From NCBI GenBank assembly GCA_017881055.1, contig JADGRF010000034.1, positions 23,049 through 87,048 of the forward strand: a DNA stretch of 64,000 nt, given 5' to 3'. The translations under genes were made by a program, and so were the position numbers. The notes beneath the pieces were generated by a model, which worked only from the letters and a program-made list of their open reading frames with translations, was not told where the DNA came from and made no database searches. Below, one piece after another: positions 36,119-46,612 of the stretch. The stretch's first letter is position 1, and every line of letters begins with the position of its first letter. This DNA is from Sandaracinaceae bacterium. Its GTDB lineage: Bacteria > Myxococcota_A > Polyangia > Polyangiales > JAFGIB01.

Positions 36119-37348
36119 ATGCGCCACGCCGCGATCGCGATTTCCGTCCTGTGTCTGGCCCCGACCGCCGTGTTTCCGGCCCAGGCGCAGCCGAAGCCGG
36201 CGCCGGCGCCGCAACGATACAGCGCGCACTTCTATCGCTTGGCGGCCGATCCCGGCAGCGTGCAAGCCTCGGCGCGGCTGCTGCAGGCGCTCACTCTCCT
36301 GCAGCAAGCGGCGCAGGTGCTGCCAACCGATTGGCGATCTCTGTGCGAGCGCACACTCGCGCTGCAACTGTCGCCGGAGCACGGAGACGAGGCGGCCCAG
36401 CGCGCGGGCAAGGAACAGGCGCTGCAGCTGGTCGCACGACAGGCCGAGGCGCGCCGCAGCATGATCGACGCCGCGCTTGCGACGCTCGACAGCGCGCTCG
36501 CGCTCGCGCCACAGAATGTCGATCTACTTTACGTGCGCGCGCGCGCACTGGCGGCGTGGGAGCAACCGGTTGCGCCGCCTCCGCGTGCTCGGTCCGGGCC
36601 CGTGGCCCCGCCTCGAGGCTGCGACGTGCAGCGACGCGACACCGAAGCCAGCGCTGCGCTCGAGCTCGTGATGCAGGTCGACCCGGGCTACGCCGCCAAC
36701 CAAGTCGCGTTCGAGCTCGGCATCGAGCGAACGCGCCTGCACGACTTCGCGGGCGCGGCCGAGGCGTACGCGCGCGCCATCGAGCTCACCTGGCGGGCGC
36801 ACGACGCAGCCATCAGCGAAGCGAACTTGGCCGAGGTCACGATGCTCGCGGGTGATCCGGCCGGCGCGCTTCCGCACTACCAGCAGGCGCTGGGCTTGTC
36901 CGGTGGACCGGGCGGGACGCGCGACTACGCGCTCGCACGCTTCGGGATCGCGGTGGCCGAGGATCGCCTGGGCGAGCACGAGAAAGCGCTGACGAGCGCG
37001 GCCCAGGCCACGGAGAGCGCCGGCCGCACGCTCTCGGCGCTCGAAGCAGACGGCGTGTTCTTCGAGCCAGCCTACGAACGGCACTACTACCTCGCGCTCG
37101 GCCACGAGTCGCTCGCGCAGCTGGCACCCGAAGCGCGTGCAGCACACCTGGCAGCCGCACGGCTGGAGTATCAGGCCTTCGTCACGGCCGCCCCGGAAAG
37201 CGACCCTTACCGGGAAGCGGCGCAGACAGACTTGGGGGCCATCGTGCGCGAGCTCGCAGCCCTACCTCACCCAGTCGCGCCGAAGCCAGATCGTCAGCTG
37301 GAACGACTCAAGCCACGACGGCAGTCGCCGTCCGGCGCTGCAAAATGA
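36119..37348 (+). CDS. Exported TPR-containing protein
   Basis: Signal peptide MRHAAIAISVLCLAPTAVFPAQA; repeated TPR-like helices (AYARAIELTW..., HYQQALGL...). Confidence 0.7.
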   Translation: MRHAAIAISVLCLAPTAVFPAQAQPKPAPAPQRYSAHFYRLAADPGSVQASARLLQALTLLQQAAQVLPTDWRSLCERTLALQLSPEHGDEAAQRAGKEQALQLVARQAEARRSMIDAALATLDSALALAPQNVDLLYVRARALAAWEQPVAPPPRARSGPVAPPRGCDVQRRDTEASAALELVMQVDPGYAANQVAFELGIERTRLHDFAGAAEAYARAIELTWRAHDAAISEANLAEVTMLAGDPAGALPHYQQALGLSGGPGGTRDYALARFGIAVAEDRLGEHEKALTSAAQATESAGRTLSALEADGVFFEPAYERHYYLALGHESLAQLAPEARAAHLAAARLEYQAFVTAAPESDPYREAAQTDLGAIVRELAALPHPVAPKPDRQLERLKPRRQSPSGAAK

Positions 37349-38522
37349 CCGCGGACGCATTGCCGTAGTAGCCCACGGCGAGCACCAGCACGTGCTCGAT
37401 GTGCTCGGGCCGCTTGCCCTGCACGACCGGGCCGATCTCGACGCCATCGAACCAGCTGAGCACGCAGGCCATCGCCAGGGCACCGGCGGCACCGAACGTC
37501 TCGCCGAACAACGCCTTCGGCGCGATCACGCACGGCCGCGCGCCCAGCACGGCTTCGATACCCGACAGCTCCGCGGCATCGAAATGCGGGATGCCGCTCG
37601 CCGCGCTCGCCACGACGTCGATGTCGGCCGCCGTCAGCTGCGCATCCGAGAGCGCCATGCGGATCGCGCGCTGCACCGCGAGCGGCGAGACGTGCACGAG
37701 TAGCGCCTGCGACTCCGGCGGCTCGAACGCATTGCCATAGCCCACGATGTCGGCGAGCACATGCGCACCGCGGCTCTTCGCGAACTCCTGCGTCTCGAGG
37801 CATAGGTACGCAGCCCCCTCGCCCAGGCGCATGCCCTGGCTTTCACGGCGACCCGGCGCGAACACGCGCTCGCCCTCCGCCAACACATCGAGCTTGCGGA
37901 ACGCCAAGTACAGCGGCTCGCTCAGCGATTCACCGCCGCCGACCAGAAACGCGTCAGCGCGCCCGTTGCGCAAATGAGTCTCGCTGCTGAGCACGGCGTC
38001 GAGCGAGCCGCAGTTGCCGTCGACCACGGTCACGTTCGGAGCGCGCAGGTCTTCCCAGATGCTCACGTAACCAGCCGCCGCGTTGATCACGGTGTTCGGA
38101 AAGCGGTTGGGATTCAGAAAGCGCGGGTCCTCGAGCTCGGAGACCTGCACCGCTTCGGTGATCGCTTCGAGCGAGCCGTACGCCGTCGCGGAGCACAGGC
38201 CAATGCGATGCGGCGAGAACTTGTGCACACCGTCCTGCTTGAGCCCGCTGTCCTCGAGCGCGAGCTTGGCCGCGACGATCAAGAGCTTGGTCAAACGATC
38301 GAAGTTACGCAGGCCCTTGTCGCCCAGGTAGTGCTTGGCGTCGAAGTCGAAGCACTCGGCCGCTGTCGGCTGCGGAATGATCTTCGGATCGAGGCACGAA
38401 GGATGATCGTGGAACACGTCGGGGCCGCCGCGCGAGTGCGCGACCAGCGCCCGCCGGAAGGCTTCGGCGCCAATGCCGATCGGGCTGACCAGCCCGTAGC
38501 CGGTGATCGCGTACGGGTTCAC
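37308..38522 (-). CDS. Beta-ketoacyl synthase-like, catalytic His residues replaced (CLF-like)
   Basis: KS fold motifs VVDGNCGSLDAVLSS, DIDVVASAASGIPHFDAAE, APKALFGETFGAAGALA; GTGA overlap with upstream KS. Confidence 0.88.
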   Translation of the reverse strand: MNPYAITGYGLVSPIGIGAEAFRRALVAHSRGGPDVFHDHPSCLDPKIIPQPTAAECFDFDAKHYLGDKGLRNFDRLTKLLIVAAKLALEDSGLKQDGVHKFSPHRIGLCSATAYGSLEAITEAVQVSELEDPRFLNPNRFPNTVINAAAGYVSIWEDLRAPNVTVVDGNCGSLDAVLSSETHLRNGRADAFLVGGGESLSEPLYLAFRKLDVLAEGERVFAPGRRESQGMRLGEGAAYLCLETQEFAKSRGAHVLADIVGYGNAFEPPESQALLVHVSPLAVQRAIRMALSDAQLTAADIDVVASAASGIPHFDAAELSGIEAVLGARPCVIAPKALFGETFGAAGALAMACVLSWFDGVEIGPVVQGKRPEHIEHVLVLAVGYYGNASAVILQRRTATAVVA

Positions 38523-39805
38523 GGGGCGACGGCTGCAGCGGCCGCAGCCGCGTTGTCGGAGAGAGCCGCCCTGTAGGCCTCGTTCGGATCCGGCAAGCGA
38601 CCCGGCTTGGCAAACGCGACCACGGCATCGTACCCGCCGAACGCGAGCGCGTTGTTGAGCACGATGTCGGCGCGACCGCTGGCCGCGCGGTTCGCGACCA
38701 AGTTGAGATCGCACTCGGGGTCGGGCGTCTCGTAGCTCACGGTGGGCGGATAGATGCCCGTCTGCACGGTGAGCACGCAAGCCACGGCTTCGAGCGCGCT
38801 GGCCGCACCCATGCAGTGCCCGAGCATGCCCTTCATGCTGCTGACCGCGACCGGACGCGAGCCGAACACCTCGCGGATCACGAGCGCCTCGACCTTGTCG
38901 TTGGCGTGCGTGCCGGTGCCGTGCGCGTTGATGAAGTCGATGTCGTCGGCGGTCACGCCGCTGCGCGCGATCGCTTCGCGCATGGCAACCAAGCTGCCGA
39001 TGCCCTCGGGATGCGGACGTGTGATGTGATGCGCGTCGCACGCCAGGCCCGTGCCGCCGATCTCGGCCATCGGCGTTGCGCCACGGCGCACCGCGTGCGC
39101 TTCCGACTCGAGCACGAGCACGCCCGCACCTTCACCGACGATCAAGCCCTTGCGGTTCTTGTCGAACGGCTGACAGCGCTCCGGCGCCACCGCACCCAAG
39201 CGCACGAAGCCCGCGAACTGCAGCTTCTGCAGGAGCTCGCTCGCACCGGTGATCACGACATCCGCGCGCCCTGCGCGGATCAAGTCCGCTGCAAACGCGA
39301 TCGAGTAGTTGCCAGCTGCACACGCGGCCGGCAGCGTCTGCACCATGCCGCGCGCACCGAACGCACGCGCCAAGTGGATGGGCAGGAGCGTGGAGCCGTA
39401 GAGCGGAAGCTTGTTCGGCAGCACGGCATCGTTGCCGCCGTGAATCCACGATTCCTCGAGCTCACCGATCACGTCGGCCTCACCCATCGTCGTGCCCAAG
39501 ATCACAGAGGTGCGATCACCCGCCAGGTGCTTCGGTAGCAGCCCCGCGTCGGTGACGGCCATGCGTGCTGCGGCGAGCGCGAACGCGGAGCAACGACCCA
39601 TGCGGCGCGCTTCGGCGGCCGTGAGAAAGTCGCGCGGGCTGAAGCCTTTGACCTCGGCGGCGACGGTGCGATCCAGCGTCTTGGTGTCGAAGCTCTCGAT
39701 CGTCGAGAAGCCCGAGCGCCCCTCGACGACGGCCTTCCAATACGCGTCGCGGCCAAACCCGAGTGAGCTGACGACGCCGAGACCCGTGACATAGACGCGT
39801 GACAT
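38519..39805 (-). CDS. Beta-ketoacyl-ACP synthase (FabF-like), complete catalytic triad
   Basis: PAACAAGNYSI (Cys), NAHGTGTHANDKVE (His), SMKGMLGHCMGAASALEA (Lys/His). Confidence 0.93.
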   Translation of the reverse strand: MSRVYVTGLGVVSSLGFGRDAYWKAVVEGRSGFSTIESFDTKTLDRTVAAEVKGFSPRDFLTAAEARRMGRCSAFALAAARMAVTDAGLLPKHLAGDRTSVILGTTMGEADVIGELEESWIHGGNDAVLPNKLPLYGSTLLPIHLARAFGARGMVQTLPAACAAGNYSIAFAADLIRAGRADVVITGASELLQKLQFAGFVRLGAVAPERCQPFDKNRKGLIVGEGAGVLVLESEAHAVRRGATPMAEIGGTGLACDAHHITRPHPEGIGSLVAMREAIARSGVTADDIDFINAHGTGTHANDKVEALVIREVFGSRPVAVSSMKGMLGHCMGAASALEAVACVLTVQTGIYPPTVSYETPDPECDLNLVANRAASGRADIVLNNALAFGGYDAVVAFAKPGRLPDPNEAYRAALSDNAAAAAAAVAP

Positions 39806-39843: not shown

Positions 39844-39911
39844 GGTTGCGACACGCACACGACACGTGTTCCGGCCGGCCGACTGGCCTAATTTCCTCGG
39901 GGAATTGTCGC

Positions 39912-39941
39912 TTGACACGGTGTCGCTGCGGCCCGTAGATA
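39912..39941 (+). promoter_or_regulatory. Putative sigma70-like promoter for the FAAL operon
   Basis: TTGACA (6/6) -N18- TAGATA; predicted start at about the ATG (39950). Confidence 0.45.
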
Positions 39942-39949
39942 GGCGCGCC

Positions 39950-41647
39950 ATGGCGCCCTCCGACCAGGACACGCTCGTGTCTTGCCTAGCGAATCTACCG
40001 CGCGGCGAAGCGCGTGGCTTTCGTTTCCGCAATCTTCTTGGCGGCGAGGACGGCAACGAGCGCTACTTCCCGTTTCAAGAGCTGGAGCGCGAAGCCAAGG
40101 TGCGCGCGGCCCGCCTGCACGCTCTCGGGTTGCGCAAGGGCGATCGCATCGCGCTCGTGATCGCCGACCCGGCCGAGTTCGTGCTGAGCTTCCTGGGTGC
40201 CGCTGTTGGCGGCATCGTGCCGGTGCCGATCTACCCGCGCGCCAGCTTCAAGGCCAAGAACGCCTACGTCGAGACGGTCAGCCACATCGTGAAGGCGGCC
40301 GGCGCGAAGGTCTTGCTGCTCACGGAGTCCAGTAAGCCCGTGGTCGAAGAAGTGCTGCAGCACGACACGGGGCTCTCCGAGCTGGTCGTGCTGGAAGAGT
40401 GGCTCACGCGTCCGGTCGTGCCGACCACGCTGCCGACCATCGCGCCCGAAGACCTGTGCTTTCTGCAGTTCACCTCGGGCAGCACGTCGTTGCCCAAGGG
40501 CGTGATGGTCACGCATCGCAACCTCGTGGCGAATGCGCGCGCGTTTCTCGGTGAGCGCGGCATCGCTCGCACCGACGACGACGTCGCGGTGACGTGGCTT
40601 CCGCTCTATCACGACATGGGCTTGATCGGCTTCGTGCTCGGCACGCTGGTCTGCAACATCAACACCGTGCTCTTGCCGACCGAAGCGTTCGGGCGTCGTC
40701 CGAATGTGTGGATCGACTGCATGCACAAGTACGGCGGCACGATCACCTTCGCGCCGAACTTCGCCTACGGCCTCGCCACCAAGCGCGCGCGCGACAAAGA
40801 TCTCGAAGGCCTCGACCTCAGCAAGTGGCGCATCGCCGGCTGCGGCGCAGAGCCCATCAACCCCAAGGTGATGCGCGAATTCGCCGAGCGCTTCGCACGC
40901 TGCGGCTTCAACGCCAACGCGCTCATGCCCGCGTACGGCATGGCGGAAGCCACGCTCGCGATCACGTTCCACACGCGCGGCACACCGATCATCACCGATC
41001 GCGTGGATGCGGATCGTATGCAGCAGGGCAAAGCCGTGCCGACGGATGCTCCCGCGGAAGGCGTGGGTGGTGTGCTCGAGCTGATCAACTGCGGGCACCC
41101 GTTCCCCGGCCACGCGGTGAAGATCGTGAACGAGCTGGGTGAGACGCTCGCGGATCGCGAAGTCGGCGAGATCTGGGCGAACGGCGCCAGCATCACGGCC
41201 GGCTACTACGGCAACCCCGAAGCCACCGCAGCCACGTATACCGACGGTTGGCTGCACACCGGCGACCTCGGCTACATGGTGAACGGCGACGTCTACGTGT
41301 GCGGGCGCTTGAAGGATCTAATCATCATCCGCGGCGCGAACTTCTACCCGCAGGACATCGAGTGGGCCGTCGCCGAAGTCGAAGGCGTGCGGCGCGACAA
41401 CGTGGTCGCGTTCAGCGTGATGCGTGAGGGCGAAGAAACGCTGATCGTGTCCGCGGAAGGTAACTCGACCGACGCAGCCACACTGCGCAGGACCATCGCC
41501 ACCAAAGTCATGGAGACCACGGGCCTCGCCGTCGGCCACGTCGCGGTCGTGAAAGTCGGCTCACTGCCGAAGACCTCGAGCGGCAAGGTTCAACGCCGCC
41601 GCACCAAAGCGCTGTTCGAGAGCGGGCAGCTGGAAGAACACAGTTAA
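39950..41647 (+). CDS. Fatty acyl-AMP ligase (FAAL-type adenylating enzyme)
   Basis: FTSGSTSLPKGVMVTHRNL, WLPLYHDMGLIG, GRLKDLIIIRGANFYPQDIEWAV. Confidence 0.93.
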   Translation: MAPSDQDTLVSCLANLPRGEARGFRFRNLLGGEDGNERYFPFQELEREAKVRAARLHALGLRKGDRIALVIADPAEFVLSFLGAAVGGIVPVPIYPRASFKAKNAYVETVSHIVKAAGAKVLLLTESSKPVVEEVLQHDTGLSELVVLEEWLTRPVVPTTLPTIAPEDLCFLQFTSGSTSLPKGVMVTHRNLVANARAFLGERGIARTDDDVAVTWLPLYHDMGLIGFVLGTLVCNINTVLLPTEAFGRRPNVWIDCMHKYGGTITFAPNFAYGLATKRARDKDLEGLDLSKWRIAGCGAEPINPKVMREFAERFARCGFNANALMPAYGMAEATLAITFHTRGTPIITDRVDADRMQQGKAVPTDAPAEGVGGVLELINCGHPFPGHAVKIVNELGETLADREVGEIWANGASITAGYYGNPEATAATYTDGWLHTGDLGYMVNGDVYVCGRLKDLIIIRGANFYPQDIEWAVAEVEGVRRDNVVAFSVMREGEETLIVSAEGNSTDAATLRRTIATKVMETTGLAVGHVAVVKVGSLPKTSSGKVQRRRTKALFESGQLEEHS

Positions 41648-41722
41648 TCACCTTGAAGCTCGCACGTGGACGGAACGTCCGTTTGCGCGTATTAAGGGCC
41701 ACCGATAACCTTGGAGAACTCT

Positions 41723-41971
41723 ATGACCCGGGCTGAGCTGTTGCAGATTTTTCGGTCGACCGCCTCTGAAATTGCCGAAAAGGACCTGCAAAACGTGGAG
41801 GAAACCCGCGTGATCGCCGAGCTCGGCATCGACTCGCTCGAGCTGCTCGAAGTGATCGGCAGCCTGGAGCGCGATCTCAACATCCGCGTCCCGGACGACC
41901 AGCTCGTCGGCATCCAGACGGTGGGTCAGCTGATCTCGCTGGTGGCCGACAAGATGCCGATGAACGGTTGA
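41723..41971 (+). CDS. Acyl carrier protein (ACP1)
   Basis: ELGIDSLELLEVIGSLERDLNIRVPDDQL; phosphopantetheine Ser in GIDSLEL. Confidence 0.92.
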   Translation: MTRAELLQIFRSTASEIAEKDLQNVEETRVIAELGIDSLELLEVIGSLERDLNIRVPDDQLVGIQTVGQLISLVADKMPMNG

Positions 41972-41976
41972 TTCGG

Positions 41977-42216
41977 ATGGCCCTAAGCACCGAAGAGCTG
42001 CGCGAGAAGATCCGTGCCGTCGTGGCGGAGATCGCCGAAATCGACGAGGTCCCGGACGATGCCCCGTTCAAGGACCTCGGCATCGATTCCATGATGGCGA
42101 TCGAGATCGTTGCCGAGATCGAGCGCAGCTACGGCATCAAGATTCCCGAAGCCGAGCTCGAGAAGGTTCGCGATCTGAGCTCGGTCGTGGCGCTCGTGCA
42201 GTCGAAGCTCGGCTGA
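41977..42216 (+). CDS. Acyl carrier protein (ACP2)
   Basis: DLGIDSMMAIEIVAEIERSYGIKIPEAEL. Confidence 0.92.
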   Translation: MALSTEELREKIRAVVAEIAEIDEVPDDAPFKDLGIDSMMAIEIVAEIERSYGIKIPEAELEKVRDLSSVVALVQSKLG

Positions 42217-42231: not shown

Positions 42232-42678
42232 ATGGCAGCTCTCGCACCGGTTCCGGGCGTCACGATCACGACGCATCGCCTGCGCGTGGCCTACGCCGAC
42301 ACCGATCAGGGCGGCGTCGTGCACCACGGCACGTACCTGCGCTACCTGGAGTGCGCTCGGGTCGAGCACATGCGCGAACGCGGGTTCGACTACCGAAGGC
42401 TCGAGCTGCAAGACCGCTTGGGCCTCCTCGTGGTCGAAGCCAACCTCCGCTACAAGCTGCCCGCCCGCTTCGACGACGAGCTCTCGCTGCGTACCTGGAT
42501 CGGCTTCGCCAACCGGGCAAAAATACGCTTCGACACGTTGATCATGCACGGCGACCACGTGCTCACGGAGGCGCAGCTGACGCTGGCCTGCGTGAATATG
42601 GTCAAGGCCAAGATCACCAGCATGCCGGCGAGCGTGCTCGCGCTGGCCGACGCCACCGTGGGCGCCTCCGTGCGCTGA
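42232..42678 (+). CDS. Hotdog thioesterase, YbgC/4-hydroxybenzoyl-CoA thioesterase-like
   Basis: LRVAYADTDQGGVVHHGTYLRYLE. Confidence 0.9.
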   Translation: MAALAPVPGVTITTHRLRVAYADTDQGGVVHHGTYLRYLECARVEHMRERGFDYRRLELQDRLGLLVVEANLRYKLPARFDDELSLRTWIGFANRAKIRFDTLIMHGDHVLTEAQLTLACVNMVKAKITSMPASVLALADATVGASVR

Positions 42679-42695
42679 CGCGCTACGCTACCGTG

Positions 42696-44420
42696 ATGCC
42701 GAGTCCGCCCGTCACGCCTTCCGCCATACCTACCGCAGCTCGGGTCGCCTGGGGCTTCCGCTTGGGCCTGGTCGTCTCGGTCGTGCTCGCGCTGGGCCTG
42801 TATGCGGTCTGGATGATCGGCCCGGGGCGCCCGGCCGATCTATTTCTCAGCTGGGCGGTGAACGCGTGCGCGTGCGCGTGGCTGTGGGCGCTCTGTGAAG
42901 TCGTCGCCGGTCGCGGCGGGAAGCTGCGAAACGCGCTCGCGACGCTCGTGTTCTACCCGGTGATCTACTTCCTGTTCGCCAGCTGCTTCGTGCACACGTT
43001 CTTCTTCGACGCGGCAGCCGAACGGCGCGTCTCGCTGCTCGATCTGAACCTCGGCGCGGTGGCATTCTTTTTCTTCCGCGTGCTGCCGCCGAAGGGCTGG
43101 GCGGCGCTGACGCTGCTGACCACGGCCATTCACGCAGGTGCGCAGCTGACGCGCCGGAATACGCGCAGCGCGTCGTCGCCGCAGTTCCTCGGAGCTCTGC
43201 TTGGATTCACGCTGCTCACGTCCACCGTGGCCGCAAACGCGGCCCGCATCCCCTCGCCGCTCGTCGACATCGCCCACGATTTCTGGGAGCTCGGCACGCT
43301 GCCGCGCATCGTGCCGGCCGCACGCGCTGCGTACCCGCTCGACACGCTCGACAAGAGCGCGGCGGCTCCCACTCTCCGCAGCACACCGTTCAAGAAGGTG
43401 CTGGTCTTCGTGATGGAGACCATGACGCAGCAGAAGCTGACTGCGGAAATCGCCGGGCTCTCGCCGAATTCGTTCTTGGTGCGCGAGCGTGCGCATCTTC
43501 ATCACTACACGCGCTACACCACGAACAACCAAGACAGCCGCACGGGCATGCTCGACATGCTCAGCTCGCGCTTGATCCCGTACGAGGCCTACACCGAAGC
43601 TGGCCGTGACCACTACGCGTTCCTGGCCGACAAGCCCTCGCTCGTGGATCGCTTTCACGATCTAGGCTTTCAAACGGCCTACGGGCTCTCACAAGTCGAT
43701 GTGGAGATCGTGGTTGGCGACATGCCGTGGACGAAGGTGCTGCATCTCGAAGAACAGCAGGTACGCAGCGATCCGCGCAACCTGTGCTTCGTGACGTTCC
43801 AGTTCGAGCACGGCTGTGAAGATCGCGCGCTCTTGCCGCAGGTGTTCGACTTCATCGACAGCAGCGAGCGCGCGTTCCTGTACCAGGAGTTCATCTGGGG
43901 CCACGCGATCGAATACAACCAAGCTTCAGGCAAGACCAACACGCAGTACTACTCGTCGTATCTCGACGCCGTCGTAGCGCACTTGAAAGAGAAGGGCCTG
44001 CTGGACGACACGTTGATCGTGCTCACCTCCGATCACGGCTTTCGCGACAAGGGCAAGCAGAGCGACCCTGATGTCTTTCACATTCCCTTGTTGTTCTTCT
44101 CGACGCGCTTCACGGAGCAGAGCGACGAGCGCCTGTTCTCGCATTCCGACCTGAAGGATCTATTGTTTCACGAACTAGGCGCGGACGACATGCTGGTCGA
44201 GGATCCGTTCGTGATGGTGGTCGGTCCGACCAGCTCCGCGATGACTGCCGTGCTGACGAAGAACGACGACTTCATGCTCTGGAAGCAGCGCGGCAACGCT
44301 CATTTTCTCGTGCGCTACCAGAACGTGCGCGCGCCGAGCACGCGCGTCGATCCCGCGCAGCCAGGCGCGTTCCTGAAGCTGTTCGACGACTATCGGCGTC
44401 ACTTCGACGCGTCGCGCTGA
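42696..44420 (+). CDS. Membrane-anchored sulfatase/LtaS-like alkaline-phosphatase-superfamily protein
   Basis: N-terminal TM helices; VLVFVMETMTQQ, TNNQDSRTGMLDML, TLIVLTSDHGFRDKG, VFHIPLLFF. Confidence 0.82.
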   Translation: MPSPPVTPSAIPTAARVAWGFRLGLVVSVVLALGLYAVWMIGPGRPADLFLSWAVNACACAWLWALCEVVAGRGGKLRNALATLVFYPVIYFLFASCFVHTFFFDAAAERRVSLLDLNLGAVAFFFFRVLPPKGWAALTLLTTAIHAGAQLTRRNTRSASSPQFLGALLGFTLLTSTVAANAARIPSPLVDIAHDFWELGTLPRIVPAARAAYPLDTLDKSAAAPTLRSTPFKKVLVFVMETMTQQKLTAEIAGLSPNSFLVRERAHLHHYTRYTTNNQDSRTGMLDMLSSRLIPYEAYTEAGRDHYAFLADKPSLVDRFHDLGFQTAYGLSQVDVEIVVGDMPWTKVLHLEEQQVRSDPRNLCFVTFQFEHGCEDRALLPQVFDFIDSSERAFLYQEFIWGHAIEYNQASGKTNTQYYSSYLDAVVAHLKEKGLLDDTLIVLTSDHGFRDKGKQSDPDVFHIPLLFFSTRFTEQSDERLFSHSDLKDLLFHELGADDMLVEDPFVMVVGPTSSAMTAVLTKNDDFMLWKQRGNAHFLVRYQNVRAPSTRVDPAQPGAFLKLFDDYRRHFDASR

Positions 44421-45595: not shown

Positions 45596-46612
45596 TCAGA
45601 CGACTGCGATCGGCAGGCGCACGGTGCGCGGGGCCTTTTGCGCGTGCACGTGGCCCTGCTCGGGCTCTGCCGCGATCGGCGAGAGGCCGGCGTCGCGCAG
45701 CAGCTTCATGTCGTCGTCGCCGTCGGGGTTGGCAGTGGTCAACAGCTTGTCGCCGAAGAAGATCGAGTTCGCGCCGGCCAGAAAGCACAGCACCTGCGCC
45801 TCGCGGCTGAGTGCCGTCCGGCCCGCCGACAAGCGCACGCGCGCGTTCGGCATGAGGATGCGCGCCGTCGCGCACATGCGCACCAACTCGAACGGATCGA
45901 TCGGCGGCTGCGCTTCGAGCGGCGTACCCGGCACGGCCACGAGCGCGTTGACCGGCACGCTCTCCGGCTGCGGCGAGAAGCTCGCGAGCGTGAGCAGCAT
46001 GTTGCAGCGATCATCGATCGATTCGCCCATGCCGATGATCCCGCCGCAACACACACTGATGCCGGCATGGCTCACGTGCTCGAGCGTGCGCAGGCGATCG
46101 TCGTACGTGCGCGTGCTGATGATCTCGCTGTAGAACTCGCGCGACGTGTCCAGGTTGTGGTTGTACGCCGTGAGGCCGGCCTCTTTCAGCGCGAGCGCTT
46201 GCTCGCCGTCGAGCATGCCCAGCGTGACGCACGCCTCCATGCCCAGCGCGCGCACGCCGCGCACCATGCGCAGCACGCGCTCGAACTGCTCACCGCCCTT
46301 GGCGTTGCGCCAGGCCGCACCCATGCAGAAGCGCGTCGCGCCGCTGTCGCGGGCCGCGCGGGCTTGGCTCAGCACGTGGCGCTCGTCCAGCAACGGCTCG
46401 GCGTCCATGGTCTTGTCGTGACGCGAGCTCTGCGGGCAGTAGCCGCAGTCCTCGGGGCAGCCGCCGGTCTTGATCGAGAGCAACGTGCAGAGCTGCACGC
46501 TGTCGGGCTGCTGGTGTTCGCGATGCACGCCTTGGGCGCGGAACACGAGCTGCGTGAGGGGCAAATCGTGGATGGCACGCACGTCTTCGAGCGTCAGAAC
46601 GGTCATGTCCAC
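45596..46612 (-). CDS. bioB: Biotin synthase
   Basis: [16 protein letters not shown] radical-SAM CxxxCxx[33 protein letters not shown]. Confidence 0.96.

Follow-up and report, generated by a model that had tools for sequence, protein, structure and literature searches.

A ketosynthase-like protein without its catalytic triad as a probable chain-length-factor-like subunit in an order of Myxococcota

What does a full-length ketosynthase-fold protein do once its catalytic triad has gone? The question is raised by two overlapping genes in a stretch of 64,000 nucleotides from a Sandaracinaceae bacterium (hereafter the window). This stretch belongs to contig C51 of a draft genome of 5.88 Mb, G000, whose relatives, where named, belong to Sandaracinaceae and other Myxococcota. 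Dead ketosynthase subunits outside actinomycetes are poorly understood, and a non-actinobacterial clade of chain-length factors (CLFs) has been described as largely unexplored (PMC10132072). A first-pass annotation, made from the DNA letters, had read the second ketosynthase (KS2) as a CLF-like partner of the first (KS1). The genes of the locus are as follows.

37308 to 38522, minus strand: KS2, full-length ketosynthase-fold protein of 404 aa without catalytic triad, the proposed CLF-like subunit
38519 to 39805, minus strand: KS1, intact FabF-type ketosynthase (Cys162, His295, Lys325, His330), overlapping KS2 by GTGA
39866 to 41647, plus strand: fatty acyl-AMP ligase (FAAL)-type enzyme, divergent from KS1
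41711 to 41971, plus strand: acyl carrier protein ACP1 with a DSL serine motif, overlapping ACP2
41968 to 42216, plus strand: acyl carrier protein ACP2 with a DSM serine motif, matching PDB 9s5i chain E
42232 to 42678, plus strand: YbgC/FadM-type hot-dog thioesterase, in the conserved cluster of several relatives

The reported GTGA overlap consists of the KS2 GTG start (38522-38520) and the KS1 TGA stop (38521-38519). Large open reading frames also run antisense to the two ketosynthase genes; we interpreted them as shadow frames of high-GC DNA. The gene that immediately follows the thioesterase (42690-44420) encodes a sulfatase-superfamily protein, weakly YejM-like, which was not recovered as conserved in the other loci compared.

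Residue columns were read from an alignment of E. coli FabF with 37 KS1 and 41 KS2 orthologues, which held 42 KS2 rows. The peptides quoted in the first-pass annotation, DIDFINAHGTGT and KGMLGHCMGAA for KS1 and DIDVVASAASGI, KALFGETFGAA and GNCGSLDA for KS2, were all found in place. The upstream ketosynthase is indeed intact, since KS1 retains its four catalytic residues in every row covering them. The relevant positions of KS2 are the following.

38010 to 38015, minus strand: Asn170-Cys171, with Asn in the column of the nucleophile and Cys one residue off
37602 to 37604, minus strand: Ala307, in the column of the first catalytic His
37515 to 37517, minus strand: Lys336, the sole triad-associated residue retained
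37500 to 37502, minus strand: Glu341, in the column of the second catalytic His, near-invariant
38034 to 38183, minus strand: residues 114-163, a conservation hotspot with 24 of the 54 invariant residues and low pLDDT in the monomer model

The replacements of His by Ala and of His by Glu, as well as the cysteine one residue out of register, were thus borne out by the alignment, and the loss of the full triad extends to the whole family. The nucleophile column holds Asn in 40 of 42 rows and Pro in the other two, the first His column Ser, Gly or Ala and never His, and the second His column 40 Glu and one Asp, with one row truncated. Lys336 is retained in 40 of 42 rows (one Thr, one truncated). 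The Asn in the nucleophile column, together with the displacement of Cys171 by one residue, implies that the nucleophile was lost along with both histidines. Against 9s5h_C, a PDB chain discussed below, a one-residue shift of the alignment is possible in the first His region, which would bring Ser306 into the place of Ala307; neither is a histidine. Pfam N- and C-terminal ketosynthase domains were both found in KS2, and the FabF model TIGR03150 scored it at 171.8 bits, below the cut-off of 493.75, with the triad gone.

The first-pass annotation had allowed that other histidines might occupy the catalytic positions of KS2. This objection falls away at the level of sequence, as no His conserved across the family takes those positions. 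Since none of the 42 aligned rows revealed an invariant His or Cys column, KS2 has no conserved substitute for a catalytic residue. His313, considered as a displaced catalytic His, occurs in only two of the 42 rows, and there is no column with His in more than 24 of them.

A malonyl decarboxylase role was once proposed for Gln-bearing CLFs. KS2 might likewise act as an enzyme through Cys171 or Glu341, for instance as a malonyl decarboxylase giving starter acetyl-ACP, or provide an acyl-transfer site. The retained Lys336 and the near-invariant Glu341 speak for this proposal and imply that the vestigial pocket is still constrained. However, the column of Cys171 holds Pro, Ala or Thr in six of 42 rows, so that Cys171 is dispensable to the family, no His is conserved, and both histidines required for decarboxylation by FabF are lost (PMC2649909). 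We therefore regard an enzymatic KS2 as very improbable.

The monomer model of KS2 retained the ketosynthase fold (pLDDT 86.6, pTM 0.89), with its weakest confidence around residues 111-170. Its best fold matches were the ishigamide ketosynthase (6kxd_A, Z 49.8), FabF enzymes and the actinorhodin CLF (1tqy_B, Z 48.2). The predicted fold by itself does not tell a ketosynthase from a CLF. By sequence, the best PDB matches were 9s5h_C for KS2 (3e-48) and 9s5h_B for KS1 (1e-116), and the third-best PDB match of ACP2 was chain E of 9s5i (E 2e-10). Both entries contain the two ketosynthase-type chains, and 9s5i adds an ACP as chain E. Neither entry was among the matches listed by the KS2 fold search.

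In a maximum-likelihood tree, KS1 grouped with 9s5h_B (support 100/99) and KS2 with 9s5h_C (90/99), the latter node sitting just under the support mark of the tool and involving a 361-residue fragment as chain C. Because KS1 and KS2 are each sister to one 9s5h chain, the members of the pair must have split before the two lineages did, and the tree places the split of KS2 from KS1 before the order. The placement of ApeO and ApeR was not interpreted because their long branches meet in the tree.

The loci of the 41 KS2 orthologues, all from Myxococcota, came from a single scan that covered 84,980 species genomes. A profile search at E ≤ 1e-60 over 282 Myxococcota genomes gave 26 positives, all in one order. 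KS2 is full length in nearly all 41 relatives, and the dN/dS against the copy from the same genus was 0.16 for KS2 and 0.11 for KS1. Invariant residues of KS2 are concentrated in the 114-163 segment to a degree that none of 2000 random placements equalled; KS1 has no comparable focus (170 of 2000 random draws were as dense). We take this segment to be the dimer-interface and acyl-tunnel segment of ketosynthase enzymes. A retained interface with a lost active site is the pattern that should be expected of a CLF.

The complete loss of the triad might instead mark KS2 as a functionless, decaying duplicate of KS1. Its preserved length, its dN/dS, the sharply conserved segment and the age of the split, which exceeds that of the order, all stand against such decay, and we consider it extremely improbable. 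Judged from the alignments, KS2 is under purifying selection, and the loss of its triad is neither chance nor decay.

The pair is also kept together on the chromosome. In 36 of 38 loci, KS1 is the gene immediately before KS2, often with an overlap of 1-4 bases; in L047, L050, L104 and L105 it lies away from KS2. In L104 and L105 (genomes G017 and G032), the two genes point away from each other across about 4-5 kb, and the oxoamine synthase lies 2-5 kb from KS2; this is a rearranged version of the locus. Upstream of KS1, three other loci (L066, L067, L071) gave no FAAL match. In its stead they encode a conserved protein in which a lipoyl-ligase-type domain (LplA-B_cat) was weakly recognised, and their ACPs and thioesterase are accompanied by large proteins that matched nothing in Pfam or NCBIfam.

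The family-wide loss of the triad, the overlapping intact ketosynthase and the sister relationship of each ketosynthase to one 9s5h chain thus support, as far as sequences can, the reading of KS2 as a CLF-like partner. We consider it very likely that KS2 is a catalytically dead, CLF-like partner of KS1. From homology to KS/CLF systems, the two would form a putative obligate heterodimer with KS2 in the tunnel role.

The closest relatives found lead to anammox bacteria. In Kuenenia stuttgartiensis, the ladderane candidate cluster contains a "non-canonical FabF", Kuste3606 (PMC2649909), within kuste3603-3608, which encode ACP, FabZ, FabF, non-canonical FabF, phytoene desaturase and radical SAM proteins (PMC4790861). 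The active-site signature of Kuste3606 is given in Table 2 of Rattray et al. 2009 (PMC2649909), and chain C of 9s5h (V163, N298, Y300, G302, K328, E333, Q342) agrees with it at all seven readable positions. By this residue signature, and not by the title of the entry, 9s5h and 9s5i very probably represent the anammox Kuste3605/3606 assembly with an ACP, or the equivalent assembly from a close relative; KS1, KS2 and ACP2 would be its myxobacterial counterparts.

Both systems place an intact FabF beside a non-canonical one that lacks the catalytic Cys and His, retains Lys and has Glu where the second His would be. The two solved chains are the sisters of KS1 and KS2, and ACP2 matches the ACP of 9s5i, very probably Kuste3603 or its equivalent in a close relative. 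The Glu shared by KS2 and 9s5h_C marks the clade. The systems differ in the Cys column, which holds Val in the non-canonical FabF and Asn in KS2, and in gene content: the cluster of KS1 and KS2 has a FAAL, two ACPs and a thioesterase, with an oxoamine synthase in most of the order, and no FabZ, phytoene desaturase or radical SAM protein was recognised among the cluster genes identified. Rattray et al. read such non-canonical proteins as enzymes with altered substrate (PMC2649909). The 9s5h/9s5i assembly suggests a CLF role for the non-canonical FabF instead.

Known CLF systems resemble the pair to different degrees. Like the actinorhodin KS/CLF (ActI-ORF1/ORF2, 1tqy), it has a dead full-length ketosynthase-like subunit directly behind an overlapping ketosynthase, with the same columns altered and Lys retained. 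In annotated Streptomyces CLFs, these columns hold Gln or Gly for Cys, Asp for the first His and Arg for the second, and one CLF examined also has no Gln in the Cys column. Unlike KS2 with its Asn170, Ala307 and Glu341, these CLFs lie beside cyclases and aromatases; none was recognised among the genes of the KS1/KS2 cluster. In the phylogenetic comparison with CLFs proposed in the first-pass annotation, KS2 joined 9s5h_C and lay on a branch separate from the aromatic Streptomyces CLFs, though a single clade of all CLFs was not rejected (p-AU 0.46).

The ishigamide (Iga11/Iga12, 6kxd) and aryl polyene (ApeO/ApeC) systems are likewise reducing type II systems with a ketosynthase and a ketosynthase-like partner, and aryl polyene clusters also have two ACPs and a thioesterase. 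Unlike in these systems, no KR, DH, glycosyltransferase or exporter was recognised in the KS1/KS2 cluster. The ApeC-like type, against which the first-pass annotation had also wished to place KS2, does not fit, since ApeC is half-length with one thiolase domain (240 aa in E. coli) as opposed to the 404 aa of KS2. KS2 is best described as a known kind of protein, CLF-like, from a distinctive clade and in a new context.

This context is an alpha-oxoamine synthase, found directly downstream of KS2 in 29 of the 38 loci with room for it. Among 56 genomes of the order, it was present in 41 of 42 with KS2 and in five of 14 without (Fisher p 2e-6, a statistic that ignores phylogeny); all five belong to one genus, g8. 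In the family of the window itself, the gene has usually moved away from KS2. The copy of the window's genome (G000:C46:4-1239, L087) begins 4 bases from a contig end and is 73% identical to that of L045. Because of these moves and its retention alone in g8, the functional link between KS2 and the oxoamine synthase is not absolute. In Labilithrix-type loci, the oxoamine synthase is followed by conserved genes for ThiG, ThiE, a third ACP, a lipid A acyltransferase and ABC proteins. We regard these genes as an adjacent block outside the system, since they are missing at this place in the window.

The best PDB match of the oxoamine synthase was the serine palmitoyltransferase (SPT) of Sphingobacterium (3a2b, E 3e-67); the NCBIfam SPT model gave 311.7 for the enzymes of relatives against a cut-off of 640. 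The BioF model gave about 316 bits for the enzyme of the window's genome against a cut-off of 426.45. This score, a biotin synthase gene, bioB, 7 kb away in the window (45596-46612), and the proximity of oxoamine synthase, ACP and bioB in G010 (L106) could indicate that KS1 and KS2 feed the pimeloyl chain of biotin. However, bioB stands apart in the window, a better bioF lies beside bioD on contig C41 (415.8 bits, itself just below the cut-off), a clear bioA lies on another contig, and the PDB kinship is with SPT. Because bioF/bioD and bioA lie elsewhere, we reject the biotin pathway as a highly improbable destination.

L106 (G010:C8) comes from a genus without KS2. Close to its oxoamine synthase are genes for an ACP, for a protein like serine O-acetyltransferase and for an HpnA-type NAD epimerase, a set resembling Caulobacter-type sphingolipid gene sets. 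The epimerase, considered as a possible ketosphinganine reductase, has no match in the window's genome.

Two described systems come close to the gene set. Rhodobacteria have SPT together with an ACP and an acyl-ACP synthetase dedicated to it (spt-acpR-aasR; PMC9386255), a combination like that of the SPT-like enzyme here, and in Pseudomonas a type I PKS and an oxoamine synthase (PfSgaAB) make sphingolipids (PMC12134224), which likewise ties a PKS to these lipids. A type II KS/CLF pair is not described in either, and our literature search found no paper describing a KS/CLF combined with an oxoamine synthase.

The same genes can be read otherwise: KS2 may be a ketosynthase-like partner in a pathway devoted to elongating long-chain or polyunsaturated fatty acids, with the product going to membrane lipids or lipid A and not to the oxoamine synthase. 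Such a role was suggested for Kuste3605/3606 and the Desulfotalea cluster. It would agree with the Kuste3606 signature borne by the closest relatives (9s5h_B/C), with the FAAL and thioesterase, and with the lack of any recognised aromatase or cyclase. The position and co-occurrence of the oxoamine synthase argue against it, as does the lack of a recognised radical SAM protein or phytoene desaturase of the anammox kind. We regard dedicated elongation as a tentative alternative.

We slightly doubt, yet consider quite possible, that the KS1/KS2 pathway leads to an oxoamine, sphingoid-like product. In such a pathway, the FAAL would adenylate a fatty or other carboxylic acid and load it onto one of the two dedicated ACPs, and KS1/KS2 would elongate the loaded acyl chain with malonyl-ACP. 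KS1 would perform the condensations, and KS2, without catalysis, would supply the other half of the acyl tunnel and, by homology to KS/CLF systems, fix starter and chain length. Since no KR or DH was recognised among its genes, the cluster would rely on the general fatty acid synthase for the reductase and dehydratase steps. The alpha-oxoamine synthase would then condense the acyl-ACP with an amino acid, most likely serine, to an aminoketone, a sphingoid-like lipid, and the thioesterase may clear or release stalled chains.

More speculatively, Polyangia may have rewired a type II KS/CLF from the anammox-ladderane clade so that it builds the acyl chain for an SPT-like oxoamine synthase, with the dead subunit setting chain length. 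If true, sphingoid or aminoketone membrane lipids would be made by a route resembling that of type II polyketides. Three things set the locus apart from the routine: it is conserved across an order, it is akin to the anammox pair, and it is unexpectedly linked to an oxoamine synthase. Through the pair, a gene set conserved in a myxobacterial order is connected with the solved 9s5h/9s5i assembly and, by signature, with the non-canonical FabF that was pointed out in 2009 in the ladderane candidate cluster. The oxoamine synthase link makes a direct, testable prediction on bacterial sphingoid-like lipids, and Myxococcota may be the more tractable organisms in which to learn the role of such dead subunits.
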